Part shown: positions 1-38,761 of the stretch, in pieces
How the letters are laid out: each line of letters begins with the position of its first letter
How positions within the stretch are numbered: position 1 is the stretch's first letter
Virus record (IMG/VR): IMGVR_UViG_3300048592_000992
Coordinates: 1 to 45,672 of that record
From: a virus
DNA: 45,672 nucleotides
Strand: one strand, 5' to 3'
The notes under the pieces: model-generated
The model's database searches: none
Seen by the model: only the letters and a program-made list of their open reading frames with translations
Told to the model about the DNA's origin: nothing
Made by a program: the position numbers and the translations under genes

Positions 1-35
1 TTTTTGCAATCTATGCAGGTGATGTTTTTAAACAT
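1..35 (-). CDS. Partial small ORF running off the left edge
   Basis: An ATG on the minus strand at 33-35 opens a frame that stays open to the window edge (M-F-K-N-I-T-C-I-D-C-K). A purine-rich GGGGAGGAG stretch lies just before it, although the spacing to the ATG is short. A 14-bp palindrome, CGCACCATGGTGCG (45-58), sits directly upstream of that ribosome-binding site. A good promoter (132-160, minus) points at it with about a 90-nt leader. Only 11 codons are visible, so no function can be given. The promoter context is the main reason to believe it is a gene. Confidence 0.35.
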   Translation of the reverse strand, partial: MFKNITCIDCK

Positions 36-131
36 GCTCCTCCCCGCACCATGGTGCGAAAGGCGCTAGTAGCCTATGTGCCAGAGGCTATACTCTGCCA
101 CGCCCGAAGCAGTATTTCTGCTATGAAAAAG

Positions 132-160
132 AATCTACCGGACCATTGGCCCAAAGTCAA
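132..160 (-). promoter_or_regulatory. Promoter with operator in the spacer, leftward
   Basis: On the minus strand, TTGACT (155-160) and TAGATT (132-137) are separated by exactly 17 bp. The spacer holds the near-palindrome GGGCCAATGGTCC, which is also found in the spacers of the promoters at 1054-1082 and 1115-1143. This placement suggests a shared repressor that blocks RNA polymerase. Confidence 0.55.
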
Positions 161-171
161 AGGCTTTTCTC

Positions 172-202
172 TGAAAAAGCAGGGGCTGCAGCGAACCCCC
201 GC
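172..202 (-). terminator. Rho-independent terminator after ardA
   Basis: Read on the minus strand, a 7-bp stem (GCGGGGG with CCCCTGC, one G-U pair; 196-202 with 179-185) is followed by a run of five T. It begins 9 bp after the ardA stop codon. Confidence 0.65.
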
Positions 203-210
203 AAAAAAAT

Positions 211-711
211 TCAGTTCCTATACTCTACGATTTTATCTTTCCATTCCGTATAGAACCCGTCAAAGCTTAGGTCACGGCCAATAGCTTCGTAATCAATATA
301 ACCCGACAAATGACTGGGAATATTGCCGAACATACCGTCATCGACGAACTGCTCGGCCAGCTCCTCGAAAGTTCGGCAGCAATGAATGACTACATTATCC
401 AAGTTCTCCATTGCTTCGTCGAAGTCCATGTTTTCCTGGTCAACCAGAAACTCGAAAGACACGCGCTGCCAATCGTCCAGCTTTTCGTACTCCTCCAGCA
501 CTGTGTTAAGTTTGAAGATGTCTTCATACTCGCCAATATCAAAAGGTAATTCCCAATCGGCAATATAGAAATCGTGATCGCCGTTTGCGGTGTAAAGGTT
601 ATAGATGCGCCGCAGATGCTCCTCGTCCGTTGGAAGACTGATCCATTCACCACGAATGACGCCAGCATTATAGGCTGCCAGGGAACCAAACCAGATGCGA
701 AATTCAGACAT
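211..711 (-). CDS. ardA: ArdA-like antirestriction protein
   Basis: Predicted 166-aa acidic protein of the ArdA family. These are DNA-mimic proteins that inhibit type I restriction-modification enzymes when a plasmid or phage enters a new cell. Seen in the sequence: the N-terminal hallmark SLAAYNAGVIRGEWI, many Asp and Glu residues throughout, and the C-terminal YIDYEAIGRDL motif typical of the family. Length matches ArdA proteins (about 165-170 aa). The start at 711 is chosen over the longer frame (759) because AGGAG lies 6 bp upstream and the protein then begins with the family-like MSEFRIWFGS. It follows the small HTH gene at 789-1004 on the same strand, and both leaders carry the same hairpin next to the ribosome-binding site, so the two are probably one regulated unit. 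A terminator follows directly. Confidence 0.9.
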   Translation of the reverse strand: MSEFRIWFGSLAAYNAGVIRGEWISLPTDEEHLRRIYNLYTANGDHDFYIADWELPFDIGEYEDIFKLNTVLEEYEKLDDWQRVSFEFLVDQENMDFDEAMENLDNVVIHCCRTFEELAEQFVDDGMFGNIPSHLSGYIDYEAIGRDLSFDGFYTEWKDKIVEYRN

Positions 712-725
712 AAAGACTCCTGTTC

Positions 726-738
726 GGGCATTGTGCCC
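726..738 (-). promoter_or_regulatory. Leader palindrome GGGCA-N3-TGCCC before ardA
   Basis: Perfect 5-bp inverted repeat GGGCATTGTGCCC immediately upstream of the ardA ribosome-binding site. The same 20-bp block (CGGGCATTGTGCCCAGCTGT) recurs at 1018-1037 before the HTH gene. It could be a protein operator or an mRNA hairpin that affects translation. Confidence 0.5.
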
Positions 739-788
739 AGCTGTGTAGGGCCTTCCCAATTGCTGGGAAGGCTAGAAATTAGATTAGA

Positions 789-1004
789 TCAGTCATCAAA
801 ACGAAGAGGGAGCGGCTCAGCCTCTGCGGCATCTTCCAGCATGTAGATGACATCGGCGGGGATCGGTTCCAAATCGGCCTCCCAAGCCTTCCAGAGTTTC
901 ACGGAAGCTCCGTAAACCCTAGCAGCATCGCGCACACTGAGACGTGCTGCCATGCGAAGAACTTTGACTTGGACGCCAGTGTAGAACTCGAAAGAAAGAA
1001 CCAT
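789..1004 (-). CDS. Small HTH DNA-binding protein
   Basis: A 71-aa protein with a compact helix-turn-helix around residues 13-46 (LRMAARLSVRDAARVYGAS then VKLWKAWEADLEPIP). This resembles the HTH of XRE/YiaG-type regulators that pick out transcription start regions. AGGAG lies 7 bp before the ATG. The gene sits between its promoter (1054-1082) and ardA, like small repressors in plasmid leading regions. Inference: it may be the autorepressor acting on the operators in the promoter spacers at 138-154, 1060-1076 and 1121-1137. The C-terminus is acidic (PLPLRFDD). No dedicated oligomerisation domain is visible. Confidence 0.7.
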   Translation of the reverse strand: MVLSFEFYTGVQVKVLRMAARLSVRDAARVYGASVKLWKAWEADLEPIPADVIYMLEDAAEAEPLPLRFDD

Positions 1005-1018
1005 TTGAAACTCCTATC

Positions 1019-1031
1019 GGGCATTGTGCCC
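1019..1031 (-). promoter_or_regulatory. Leader palindrome before the HTH gene
   Basis: Second copy of GGGCATTGTGCCC, in the same position relative to the ribosome-binding site as the copy at 726-738. Confidence 0.5.
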
Positions 1032-1053
1032 AGCTGTATCTAACTTCTCTCTA

Positions 1054-1082
1054 GTTATACTGGGCCAATGGTCCGATGTAAA
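1054..1082 (-). promoter_or_regulatory. Promoter of the HTH-ardA operon
   Basis: On the minus strand TTTACA (1077-1082) and TATAAC (1054-1059) flank a 17-bp spacer that holds the operator TGGGCCAATGGTCC. Transcription would start near 1047, about 43 nt before the HTH gene start codon. Confidence 0.65.
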
Positions 1083-1114
1083 GATAATTATCTAATGATT
1101 GTAGTTTTTTACTG

Positions 1115-1143
1115 TTGATATTGGGCCAATGGTCCGATATATT
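1115..1143 (+). promoter_or_regulatory. Divergent rightward promoter with the same operator
   Basis: TTGATA (1115-1120), 17 bp, then TATATT (1138-1143). The spacer again contains TGGGCCAATGGTCC (1122-1135). It points toward the 1395 gene, leaving a leader of about 245 nt. The leader has a good AAGGAGG (1168-1174) with no start codon after it. Confidence 0.55.
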
Positions 1144-1302
1144 TTCTTTGAGCTTGGGAATAGCAGAAAGGAGGAAAGTTCATACTCAAGCGGCACTAGC
1201 GGGTAGCAAGTCCCGAGCAGTAGGTCCGCTTCGGTGGGGACTGTTCCTTAAAAATCGGCCCAAATTTGGCGTATAAAAGGCCTGGCTGAGACGCGAGATT
1301 TC

Positions 1303-1394: not shown

Positions 1395-1820
1395 ATGAGC
1401 AAAGTCGGGTTTGATGGCTATTCGATTGCTGAAGTTCTTGAGTTTACGCGTGGGCTTCGTTTGTTTCGTTTTATGGGTGCAGGCAAAGGATTCAATGGCA
1501 ATCCCCAGGAATTATCATTTCGTGCAAACTTCAAGAGCAAGGATGTCCGTGACAAAACGCTTGAAAACCTTCAGACGGTCTGGGAATCGCTTGCTGGATC
1601 TGAGCCGTATCGGTTGATTGCATTCCCCAATCCAGTCGATCATTTGCGCGCCGATATCAGCATTTGCATTCGGCACGGTGGATTTGAATTGGCTGACTTC
1701 GAGTTCGTTAAACTTCACGAGCCCGCTTTTATCGATGTGCTTAGCTCTGGAGATACGGAAATAAATGACCCGCCTGAGTTTCCGTCGCGGGGTTTTGACC
1801 GAAGTCGTTATGAGGGCTAA
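1395..1820 (+). CDS. Hypothetical protein, 141 aa
   Basis: Not recognised. A soluble protein with no signal peptide or membrane segment. Alternating hydrophobic and charged stretches (residues 14-28, 70-95 and 100-112) suggest a mixed alpha/beta fold. GGAG lies 7 bp before the ATG. It is transcribed away from the ardA operon and may share its regulation through the operator-containing promoter at 1115-1143. The C-terminal 20 residues are polar and probably disordered. Its position in a plasmid leading region makes an anti-host-defence role conceivable, but nothing in the sequence shows this. Confidence 0.6.
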   Translation: MSKVGFDGYSIAEVLEFTRGLRLFRFMGAGKGFNGNPQELSFRANFKSKDVRDKTLENLQTVWESLAGSEPYRLIAFPNPVDHLRADISICIRHGGFELADFEFVKLHEPAFIDVLSSGDTEINDPPEFPSRGFDRSRYEG

Positions 1821-3070: not shown

Positions 3071-4913
3071 TTATCTTAGCCCCCGCCTTGGCACCACGTT
3101 CATTGACTACCACTTCGGAATCCGGCCCAACCCAGACACCACGATCGCCCAGTACGCAGAGAAAAACCTCTACCTCGTTTCCGGCAAAAACCCCTTCCCA
3201 GGTCTCGTCGAATTCTCCCGCACACCCTACCTATTTGAGATCATGGATGCGCTCATGCCCGACAACGGCATTGAGCGGGTTGTGTTGATGAAGGGCTGGC
3301 AGACGGGCGGTACGCTGACGATCCTTGCCTGGATGCTCTGGGTCATGGGCGCCGCGCCTGCACCGATGATGATCGTTCAGCCAGTGTCCGAGTTGCGTGA
3401 CAAATTCTCAAAGCAACGCATCAACCCGATCGTTGCCAACTGCCGGGACCTTCGGAACAAAGTCGAAGAGCATCAAAAGCACATCGCCGGCAGCAAGCGC
3501 GAGAAGGATACGCTGATATCCAAGCACTTCCCCGGCGGCCACATCACGCTCTCGACCAGTACATCGGAATCCTCGCTCCGATCCGAGAGCATCCAGTACC
3601 TGGCATTCGATGAAGTCTCAGCCTATGAGGAGGATTGCGAGGGACACGGCGACCCCTGCGGCATCGCGCTTGGCCGGACTTCGGCCTATGACGGCCGCAA
3701 AAAGATCTTTTACAACTCGACACCGACCATCAAAGAGCATTGCCGGATCGAGCGCGAATATCTCGCCACCGACAGGCGAAAATATTTCGTCCCGTGCCTC
3801 AGCTGCGGTGAAATGCAAGTCCTTGTCTGGGCGCAGATTGACCGCTCTACGGACAACCCTGCCTATCTTTGCATTCGCTGCAGCTATCGCCACTACGAGC
3901 AGGATAAATCGGAAATGCTGCGGCGCGGCGAATGGCGTGCAACCGCGGCATCCATCGACGGCGCCCGGGGCTACCACCTGCCCGCCCTCTATGCACCGCC
4001 TGGCATGTGGTCCTGGAGAAACTGCCTGGAGCAGTTCAGAAAGGGCATCGACAACCAAGTCGAGATGAAGGTCTTCGTCAACAACTGCCTTGGCGAACCC
4101 TACGAAGACGACACGATCATCACCCGCGATCCGGAATCGGTGATGAATCTTTGCGAGGACTACTGGCCCGCCGAACGCCTCCCGCATGGGATCGGCGTTA
4201 TCACGGCCGGCGTCGATACGCACCCGTCCCATGTCGATATCGTCACACGCGGCTGGGGGCGGGGCGGGGAAAGCTGGGTGCTCGACCGCTGGATCGAATA
4301 CGGCGACTCGAATGATGGCGAGCTCTGGGATCGGGTGTATGCGCGCCTCCAGACCACCTATCTCCATAGCAATGGCTCCGATGTTCTGCGCATCGCAGCC
4401 ACAGCCGTGGACACCGGGGGCCACAATACGGGCGCCGTCTATGAATTCTGTAGCCATCTTCTGCGGCAATTCATCGTGCCGATCAAGGGTGCCAAAGGCG
4501 TTGCGGCACCGATCGTCGACAGGCCCACGGAAAAATCTGAAGCCGGCGTCTACCTTTTTTCGGTCGGAAAGCTCGCCACGCACGGGCGTCTCTATTCGTC
4601 GATCGACAAGTCCATCGCCAAATTCAAGGAATTCCAGGAGCGAAAAAAGACCGACCAGGCCGCCACGTACCGGTCGGCTGAAATCATTCATTTCCACAAA
4701 GGCCTCGGCGATGCCTTCTTCAAGGAACTGACCGCGCCCAAAAGCATCTGGAAAAAATCAGACGGCAAATACCAGCTCACCTATGAAACCACAGCCGGCG
4801 TAGCCGACCACGCGCACGACTGTCTTCGCTATGCGGACGCCGCACGCGAAATCTTCAGCGTGAACATCGACCAGCGCTGCGACGAACTCGACGGCATCCT
4901 GCCCGCCGCGTAA
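3054..4913 (+). CDS. Terminase large subunit (lambda GpA family)
   Basis: A 619-aa DNA-packaging motor with ATPase and nuclease domains; lambda gpA is 641 aa. The ATPase P-loop is degenerate (K80-G-W-Q-T-G-G, residues 80-86), as is usual in this family. The Walker B motif with catalytic Glu is LAFDEVS (D186, E187). A CxxC...CxxC zinc-ribbon-like insertion sits near residues 247-277. The RNase-H-fold nuclease begins at AGVDTHPSHVD with D388, and a later acidic site is near DHAHDCLRYADA at the C-terminus. It overlaps the small subunit and is followed after 20 bp by gpW. All motifs are intact, so it should be functional. Confidence 0.93.
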   Translation: MKRRPDYLSPRLGTTFIDYHFGIRPNPDTTIAQYAEKNLYLVSGKNPFPGLVEFSRTPYLFEIMDALMPDNGIERVVLMKGWQTGGTLTILAWMLWVMGAAPAPMMIVQPVSELRDKFSKQRINPIVANCRDLRNKVEEHQKHIAGSKREKDTLISKHFPGGHITLSTSTSESSLRSESIQYLAFDEVSAYEEDCEGHGDPCGIALGRTSAYDGRKKIFYNSTPTIKEHCRIEREYLATDRRKYFVPCLSCGEMQVLVWAQIDRSTDNPAYLCIRCSYRHYEQDKSEMLRRGEWRATAASIDGARGYHLPALYAPPGMWSWRNCLEQFRKGIDNQVEMKVFVNNCLGEPYEDDTIITRDPESVMNLCEDYWPAERLPHGIGVITAGVDTHPSHVDIVTRGWGRGGESWVLDRWIEYGDSNDGELWDRVYARLQTTYLHSNGSDVLRIAATAVDTGGHNTGAVYEFCSHLLRQFIVPIKGAKGVAAPIVDRPTEKSEAGVYLFSVGKLATHGRLYSSIDKSIAKFKEFQERKKTDQAATYRSAEIIHFHKGLGDAFFKELTAPKSIWKKSDGKYQLTYETTAGVADHAHDCLRYADAAREIFSVNIDQRCDELDGILPAA

Positions 4914-5140: not shown

Positions 5141-6677
5141 CGCTCAAAGGCCATCCCTGTGGTCACGGATGCAGAGTGTCTTCATGCCCTCGGCATGGAA
5201 CAGGCTCCCGCCAGTGGACAACCCTTACCGCTCCACATCGCGCGAACCTGGACCCATGAGCGAGTGGAACCCTCCCTCGTCCAATGCCGACGAATCACTT
5301 CTGCCGGTCCTTACGACTCTTCGCGATCAATCCCGCGACCTCGACCGAAACGAAAGCATCGCCCGCGGCGGACTCGAAAACTACATCACCAACGTGGTCG
5401 GCGACGGACTGCGGCCCCAATGCCGCATCGATCACGAGCTGATCGGGATCACCGAGGAAAAGGCGCGAGAGTTCGAGCGGCGTGCCGAGAAAATCTTTGC
5501 CCTTCACATGAACAAAAATACAGCCGACTGGCACGGCACCGGAAACTTCGCCACCCTTCAGGCCCAGGCTCTGCGGGCCAGCATGCTCGACGGCGACTGC
5601 CTCGCGGTCCGGCGCTTTAGAAACCGCCCGGGCGCGATCATGGGAACTGCGATCCAAATCATCGAGGCCTCCCGCATCCGAAGCCCAATGGAGATCAAGA
5701 CTGATATCGACGTGCGGGAAGGGGTCGAACTCGACAAAACCGGGATGCCGATCGCCTATCATGTTGGAAAAACCGGAGCCGATCGATTCCTTGGCAGCGA
5801 GACGGTGCGCGTTCCCCGTTTTGACTCTGATGGTACGGCCGTCGCTCTTCACCTCTTCCACCAGCGCCTGCCAGGGCAGAGCCGGGGTGAGCCTTTCCTC
5901 GCTCCCGTCATCGGAAAGTTCAAGCAGATCTCACGCTACAGCGAAGCCGAGATTGATGCGGCCGTCATCAATGCTTTCTTCGCAGCGGCACTGACCAGCG
6001 ATGTCGGTGGCATATTCGGTGATCGCTCGAAAGCCCACCTTGCCAATCCCCAGACAAAGCCGCCCGAGCGCAAGTACCATAAGTTTGGCCCCGGCACGAT
6101 TCTGGAGCTTTTGCCTGGCGAGAAGCTCGAAGGCACAACTCCCGGCCGACCCAATATGAACTTCGATGCCTTTGTGCAGGCCGTCATAAAGCAGATCGGC
6201 ATCGGGCTCTCTATTCCCTATGAAGTTCTCACGCAGCATTTTTCGTCGAGCTACTCAGCAGCCCGGGCGGCGATCCTTGAAGCATGGAAGGTCTTCAAAG
6301 TCCGCCGGGCCTGGCTCGTGAGCGAATTCTGCCAGCCCGTCTGGGAATGGGTGATCGCCGACGCTATTGAAAGCGGACTGCTCGATGCGCCGGGGTTTGA
6401 CGATCTTTTGAAGCGTCACGCCTACCTCACAACCCAGTGGTGCGGCACGGAAATGGAAGCCATAGACCCACTCAAGGAAGCAAAGGCCAGCGAAACCGAG
6501 ATAGCGATTGGAGTAAAATCCAGGCGCTACATCGTTGAAAGCCAGGGACGTGACTTCGACAAACAGATTCAGGAGTATGAAGAGGAGAAGGATATCTTCG
6601 CTGATCCGGCAGCACAAAGCCAGGACATGGGCAAGACGAATTCCGGGCAGGACCGTCCGCAATCTGCGGACAGCTGA
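5124..6677 (+). CDS. Portal protein (lambda gpB family)
   Basis: A 517-aa portal, close to lambda gpB (533 aa). It forms the dodecameric ring at the head vertex through which DNA is packaged and ejected. Family features seen include the N-terminal RDQSRDLDRNESIARGGLEN block (residues 68-87), the central GEPFLAPVI segment and the C-terminal LSIPYEVLTQHFSSSYSAAR motif typical of lambda-type portals. The start at 5124 is preferred over 5109 because GGAGG lies 9 bp upstream of it. The last codons contain the palindrome GTCCGCAATCTGCGGAC, which is also present before the terminase. The C-terminal tail is Gln- and Ser-rich and probably disordered. Confidence 0.93.
   Translation: MQYLVNAQRPSLWSRMQSVFMPSAWNRLPPVDNPYRSTSREPGPMSEWNPPSSNADESLLPVLTTLRDQSRDLDRNESIARGGLENYITNVVGDGLRPQCRIDHELIGITEEKAREFERRAEKIFALHMNKNTADWHGTGNFATLQAQALRASMLDGDCLAVRRFRNRPGAIMGTAIQIIEASRIRSPMEIKTDIDVREGVELDKTGMPIAYHVGKTGADRFLGSETVRVPRFDSDGTAVALHLFHQRLPGQSRGEPFLAPVIGKFKQISRYSEAEIDAAVINAFFAAALTSDVGGIFGDRSKAHLANPQTKPPERKYHKFGPGTILELLPGEKLEGTTPGRPNMNFDAFVQAVIKQIGIGLSIPYEVLTQHFSSSYSAARAAILEAWKVFKVRRAWLVSEFCQPVWEWVIADAIESGLLDAPGFDDLLKRHAYLTTQWCGTEMEAIDPLKEAKASETEIAIGVKSRRYIVESQGRDFDKQIQEYEEEKDIFADPAAQSQDMGKTNSGQDRPQSADS
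6655..6671. repeat. Palindrome GTCCGCA-N3-TGCGGAC, second copy
   Basis: A 17-bp inverted repeat with 7-bp arms at the 3' end of the portal gene. The arms are identical to those at 2355-2371 upstream of the terminase. No T-run follows, so it is not a typical terminator. Confidence 0.5.
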
Positions 6678-6862
6678 AACCTTTACAGGGAAAGGCTGCT
6701 CCTGATATTCTTCGCCTTGCCTCTCTCTGCAGTCTTCCCTGACTGCACTTTGCCCACCCCCTCGAAATCACGCCCCCAAACACCCGGAGCCCCTCTCTGT
6801 CTTTTGCTCTCAGCTACATCACAAGCACCCCATGGGCCATCACTGAAGACTCGCTGCGGTCC

Positions 6863-38125: not shown

Positions 38126-38761
38126 CTAAGTCCGTGGTGGAAGAAGTTGGAATTTTCCTTCGATTTCCACGAATATGCCAGTGCCAAAGCTCGGAGATAG
38201 AATAATGGGGATCGTAGTTATTCCGCTCTTATTCGGATCTCCGGTCCAGAAAAACGGATCAACATTGAGCGCAGAGTATTCAATCAGATTGTTGGCTTTG
38301 GTAAGAGCAGAGACAGTTGCTTCAAATTGAACAATCAAAGTTGCTTTCTTGAATTCGCCCTTGGTATATAAATTTATCCATTCTGAAGGTGTTTGAAGAG
38401 TGCCGCCAGGGCCTTGATTCGTAGCTCCAGATCTATATTCTTCACCTCCAATCATTTCGCCAAACCACTGGACTTTGCATCTAAATCCGATTTGCTTCAC
38501 TTCTAATGGATCATTGTAAAACTTGATTCGTGCTCTTATCGTTTCATTAGGCGCGCAACGGAATTCTATAGGATTATTGGAGGCCGCCCGAACGAAATAG
38601 TTGTTCTTCTGGACTCGATAAAATTCAAGTAGATTTTCGTAGTATTCAGGGTTTTCGCTTCTCAAAAACTGATTGTTTTTTTCAAATTCAAGTAGAAATT
38701 GCTTTTTTTCTGATGATAGATCTGATTTACTCGACCGAGCTTTCTTTTTACGTGGCGCCAT
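38126..38761 (-). CDS. Unknown soluble protein, 211 aa
   Basis: Not recognised. The N-terminus is very basic (APRKKKARSSKSDLSSEKK), followed by a helical stretch (LEFEKNNQFLRSENPEYYEN) and a beta-rich remainder (RARIKFYNDPLEVKQIGFRC, ATLIVQFEATVSAL). No signal peptide. GGGAG is upstream of the ATG. It is divergent from the lipoprotein gene at 38790 with only 28 bp between starts, so the two promoters overlap. Confidence 0.6.
   Translation of the reverse strand: MAPRKKKARSSKSDLSSEKKQFLLEFEKNNQFLRSENPEYYENLLEFYRVQKNNYFVRAASNNPIEFRCAPNETIRARIKFYNDPLEVKQIGFRCKVQWFGEMIGGEEYRSGATNQGPGGTLQTPSEWINLYTKGEFKKATLIVQFEATVSALTKANNLIEYSALNVDPFFWTGDPNKSGITTIPIILSPSFGTGIFVEIEGKFQLLPPRT

Follow-up and report, generated by a model that had tools for sequence, protein, structure and literature searches.

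The window analysed here is the whole of a virus record of 45,672 bp, which encodes a GpA-type terminase, a portal and a ParA-like partition protein. Because of the virus record, the terminase and the ParA-like protein, we regard the source element as a phage, which may be a phage-plasmid, rather than as a conjugative leading region. The original prediction had spoken of leading-region genes, an assignment that we rejected, as the terminase and other phage structural genes are present and no transfer genes were found among the genes examined. Near the left end, the minus strand carries a gene for a 71-aa helix-turn-helix protein (789-1004) followed by ardA (211-711), encoding a 166-aa anti-restriction protein whose predicted identity is supported by the Pfam family PF07275 (E 1.8e-26; 94 bits against a cut-off of 27) and by phrog_2059. 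Both genes are driven by promoter P1 (1054-1082, minus strand; TTTACA-17-TATAAC, 10/12 consensus positions), the 71-aa gene coming first. P1 diverges from promoter PR (1115-1143, plus strand; TTGATA-17-TATATT, 10/12), which reads into a variable region. A terminator-like hairpin lies after ardA (179-202, minus strand), so that the third promoter, P3 (132-160, minus strand; TTGACT-17-TAGATT, 9/12), forms a separate transcription unit, whose gene starts just past the left end of the window.

These three sigma70-like promoters contain the same 13-mer, GGGCCAATGGTCC, in the middle of their 17-bp spacers, at 140-152 in P3 (minus strand), 1062-1074 in P1 (plus strand as read) and 1123-1135 in PR (plus strand). 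With 5 of 6 pairs matching around a central A, the sequence is an imperfect palindrome, and the identity common to the three sites extends to the 15 bp TGGGCCAATGGTCCG; at PR the palindrome is longer, reaching ATATTGGGCCAATGGTCCGATAT. About 0.0016 exact copies of the 13-mer would be expected by chance in the window. A search of the full record for additional copies, suggested with the original prediction, returned the three known ones and no further exact copy in the rest of the 45,672 bp; the next-best matches (at 4157 and 43881) have two mismatches each and are located within long reading frames. Since promoters with at least 9/12 matches and a 17-bp spacer start at only 3.4e-4 of the position-strands of the window, the centring of each of the three operators in such a promoter is not due to chance. 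The prediction of one operator placed in the spacer of three promoters is thus borne out, and that of a small regulon, with two promoters diverging beside the operon of the 71-aa gene and ardA, is supported.

A scan of the whole collection with the 15-mer retrieved two relatives and 58 single copies, the latter having the appearance of chance matches. The two relatives, the phage contigs L006 and L007, contain the same block; a terminase-based search of genomes found no relatives. In both contigs, the three operators and two 21-nt repeats of the P1 operon (described below) show no change, and the promoters have 97-100% identity with those of the window, whereas the DNA between P1 and PR is 69% identical and the ardA coding region 86% identical. 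The conservation of operators and repeats amid diverged neighbouring DNA points to selection on these sites. The window (38126-38761) and L007 (3024-3653) also encode proteins of about 210 aa without known Pfam family, 26% identical to each other, which are located at differing places in these related phages. The L007 contig runs on (5690-6853) into apparent cation-efflux and RND-type transporter genes, suggesting that it corresponds to a plasmid-like or mosaic element.

About 100 nt past PR (1144-1240) are conserved between the three phages, with a potential long hairpin (AAGCGG...CCGCTT) and a structured leader at 1184-1235 (plus strand); divergence is complete thereafter. This conserved stretch could correspond to a leader or small RNA preceding a site of gene exchange. 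The gene downstream of PR in the window encodes a 141-aa protein without known family (1395-1820, plus strand); each relative has a different gene at this place, and the first long gene that follows PR in L007 is oriented against the promoter.

The window stops 35 bp into the leader ORF of P3, and the gene behind this promoter was identified from the two relatives. In both of them, P3 is followed by a gene for a 207-aa protein with two KorC-like helix-turn-helix domains (5004-5627 in L006, 5003-5626 in L007). The P3 leader being 96% identical, we infer that the phage studied here likewise has a tandem KorC-like gene driven by P3, to the left of the window. The two domains of the 207-aa protein both match phrog_8351 (E 6.2e-14, in two stretches), as does an annotated IncP-1 KorC (E 4.2e-22), and in BLAST searches each of them aligns with KorC-type proteins adjoining klcA. 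Identity between the two halves amounts to 52%, indicating a tandem duplication, and the protein departs in this respect from the single-domain size (about 85-120 aa) that is typical of KorC-like repressors. Its structural model shows two helix-turn-helix units with modest confidence (mean pLDDT 65.6). Among solved structures, the best match was Aca1 both by sequence (E 0.045) and by fold (Foldseek probability 1.00, E 0.085), both matches being weak. The P3 leader itself (33-58, minus strand; 4945-5006 in L006) contains a perfect palindrome, CGCACCATGGTGCG (45-58), directly before the ribosome site (37-45), and a 12-codon leader ORF (ATG at 33-35) that overlaps the start of the KorC-like gene; this ATG is replaced by ATA in L007.

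On IncP-1 plasmids, KorC is known to repress the anti-restriction gene klcA. In the IncP-1 plasmids from which we read its operators, all of them other than RK2 and RA3, the KorC sites (GG[GA]CA-N3-TG[TC]CC) are located in or against the promoter spacers of klcA and kle. The sites at P1, PR and P3 do not conform to this canonical sequence and have the core CCA-N-TGG instead; they do share with the KorC family a 13-bp palindromic operator placed in the promoter spacer. The CCA-N-TGG core is common to the phage operator and to the sites of longer KorC-like proteins, and the KorC-like loci of plasmids, chromosomes and phages present a recurrent design in which a 13-bp palindrome, nnnCCAWTGGnnn, lies within the promoter spacer. 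For example, a Paraburkholderia plasmid has four GGGCCAWTGGCCC spacer palindromes, one of them before an anti-restriction gene, although these operators cannot be assigned to one regulator because the plasmid has two KorC-like genes. A Methylomonas plasmid has three spacer palindromes of the GCCCCAWTGGGGC type and a Collimonas plasmid two sites of the GGCCCAWTGGGCC type, one of these again before an anti-restriction gene, with sites of the same type in Hahella. Searching genomes by protein alone revealed more such loci in Hahella, Marinomonas, Methylomonas, Thiodiazotropha and Methylobacter; a Chitinimonas locus (L121) was set aside as a degenerate fragment.

GC-rich perfect palindromes in promoters number 14 in 301 kb of KorC-like loci and 0 in 513 kb of control viral contigs. 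The plasmid loci do not provide an independent test of this association, because the motif was first noticed there; the independent set consists of 18 viral KorC-like loci (149 kb), fetched afterwards by protein search. These contain 13 sites, a density of 0.87 per 10 kb, whereas two controls gave 0.14 and 0.13. Sites with a CA-N-TG core number five, against none in control sequence. By the criterion used, the spacer palindrome is absent from 15 of the 22 chromosomal and 7 of the 18 viral loci. None of these KorC-like loci, viral ones included, encodes a recognisable relative of the 71-aa protein. We also considered that an asymmetric operator could be unique to the tandem repressor, an idea that was dropped since some viral loci with single-domain proteins (L132 and L134) have imperfect palindromes as well.

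Two observations make the tandem KorC-like protein the best candidate for the repressor: this operator class recurs beside KorC-like genes where the 71-aa protein has no relative, and the gene behind P3 is KorC-like in both related contigs. From these comparisons, we estimate a probability of roughly 0.7 that the three promoters form a phage regulon resembling the KorC regulon of IncP-1 plasmids, with the tandem protein as its repressor. The operator could alternatively be bound by a host or phage master repressor, the regulon being part of ordinary lysogeny control. The phage does have other helix-turn-helix-like genes, but with no operator copies elsewhere in the record and an operator class that tracks KorC-like genes, we find this explanation very improbable.

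The original prediction had named the 71-aa protein as the natural candidate for the repressor, and the layout of its operon gives some substance to this idea. Aca2 regulators are known to bind RNA stem-loops as well as DNA. Aca proteins are repressors that act at inverted repeats in core promoters (PMC9410906), and in the acrIF8-aca2 operon of phage ZF40 one inverted repeat (IR1) is located in the 17-bp promoter spacer and a second one (IR2) in the 5′ UTR (PMC8434428). The operon of the 71-aa gene is similar in that inverted repeats occur both in its promoter spacer and in its 5′ UTR, and it includes a small helix-turn-helix gene within an anti-defence operon. The 71-aa protein, modelled with helices at residues 5-19, 24-42 and 50-61, has Aca2 chains as its top four matches in the PDB (best E 0.0021), and Aca2_YdiL (PF08965) is one of its two Pfam matches, at 18.3 bits under the gathering cut-off of 23.8. 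This protein, encoded in an autoregulatory position behind P1, might therefore recognise DNA at the spacer operators and RNA at the 5′ UTR hairpins, with the KorC-like protein being merely a regulated cargo gene; operator and hairpin have GGGC/GG.C outer half-sites in common. However, the alignment with the Aca2 profile covers only positions 3-52 of 118, leaving an Aca2-like N-terminal domain without the C-terminal dimerisation domain. In addition, the phage collection yielded no relative of the 71-aa protein, and its plasmid matches are weak (best E 1e-4, Vibrio DUF1870). Together with the recurrence of the operator class in loci that lack such a relative, this makes the 71-aa protein an unlikely repressor, and the tandem KorC-like protein appears the more likely of the two. 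The operon also differs from Aca2 systems in its target, ardA and not a known anti-CRISPR, and from acrIF8-aca2 in having the helix-turn-helix gene in first position and a second regulator gene under the same operator.

According to the preferred reading, the two-domain KorC-like repressor would be made from P3 and would bind the 13-15 bp operator between the -35 and -10 elements of P1, PR and its own promoter, blocking RNA polymerase. In a newly entered cell devoid of repressor, a burst of expression would produce ArdA from P1, the variable gene product from PR and the repressor from P3. The entering DNA would be shielded from type I restriction by ArdA, and all three promoters would then be shut as repressor accumulates. 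A comparable behaviour is documented for RP4, in which no gene is induced more strongly after transfer than klcA, which is under KorA and KorC repression (PMC7314908).

The P1 operon contains additional repeated elements, all on the minus strand. A 21-nt repeat, forming the mRNA hairpin GGGCACAAUGCCC, is present directly 5′ of the ribosome site of the 71-aa gene (1017-1037), and an identical copy with the same hairpin is present 5′ of the ardA ribosome site (724-744). A further hairpin, CCTTCCCAGCAATTGGGAAGG (751-771), is located between the two genes, where the intergenic RNA fold has a z of -2.77. The isolated 21-nt hairpins have unexceptional fold energies (z -1.6 and -0.8), whereas the whole ardA leader is exceptional (z -2.8). 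The occurrence of an identical repeat at both ribosome sites suggests, as a reasoned guess, a second control at the RNA level: the hairpins would act as a second brake, probably translational, and the Aca2-like 71-aa protein would be their natural ligand. The half-sites of the repeat (GGGCA/TGCCC) and their 3-nt spacing equal those of IncP-1-type KorC operators in two other loci (L124 and L095), so that the repeats could instead be KorC-type DNA operators GGGCA-N3-TGCCC that act as roadblocks from a position downstream of the start site, possibly via the second domain of the tandem repressor. Such a roadblock concerns the second layer of control and is compatible with the tandem protein as repressor, but no promoter match precedes the ardA copy, which is internal to the operon, and the two copies are placed alike with respect to their ribosome sites, an arrangement that speaks for RNA; we therefore regard the roadblock as rather doubtful. 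The repeats were also compared with R1, the leader RNA found downstream of KorC-type promoters, and this identification was rejected, the covariance model giving only a partial match on the antisense strand (12.2 bits, E 0.14). Tentatively, the locus could be a two-layer switch, in which a covalently fused KorC pair reads an operator of fixed asymmetry (half-sites GGGCCA and GGACCA) at the three promoters and an Aca2-like mini-protein binds the identical hairpins at the ribosome sites. The control of one anti-defence operon at the DNA and RNA levels would in that case be split between two proteins.

In its general organisation, the proposed regulon resembles the KorC regulon of IncP-1 plasmids (the klcA-klcB-korC and kle operons) in having a putative KorC-family repressor, a 13-bp palindromic operator in or against the promoter spacer, an anti-restriction gene as target and several promoters under one repressor. 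It differs in being carried by a phage and not by a plasmid, in its tandem two-domain candidate repressor, in the presence of ardA in place of klcA, in the operator core (CCA-N-TGG and not CA-N3-TG) and in lacking an IncP-type leader RNA. The phage setting, the fused candidate repressor, the ardA target and the repeated ribosome-site hairpins are new here. The locus had previously been likened to the repeated elements controlled by ArdK on IncN plasmids; in the ArdK/CUP regulon of these conjugative plasmids (R46, pKM101), several anti-restriction and leading-region genes are under one repressor. The accompanying remark that the sequences are unrelated holds for the regulators, homology with ArdK being rejected for both (no BLAST alignment better than E about 2); the closer precedent, however, is the KorC-klcA pair of IncP-1 plasmids. 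If our interpretation is correct, the KorC logic familiar from plasmids of the IncP-1 and IncU groups would apply to phages and to ardA as well, and the presence of nnnCCAWTGGnnn in a promoter spacer would provide a testable rule for finding regulated anti-defence or establishment genes in phages and plasmids. The genes behind such promoters, such as the variable gene behind PR, would be candidates for new anti-defence functions. Should the hairpins be functional, the anti-restriction operon would be under two-level control of the Aca2 type.

Another hairpin was observed in the KorC-type promoters of plasmids, chromosomes and phages. It is located in the 5′ UTR of numerous loci (L087, L094, L086, L108, L111, L114, L123, L124, L093, L095, L131, L143 and others) and has the form AGGCCGGGCA-N3-CGCCAAGGCC, before CCGGAG...CCGATG. 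No Rfam match was obtained in the seven loci searched. Five of its seven pairs show two-sided changes, 98.7% of cells pair, and many strong matches were detected in KorC-like loci against one in 380 kb of control sequence; this hairpin may represent an RNA motif, as yet undescribed, that is associated with anti-restriction and establishment genes.
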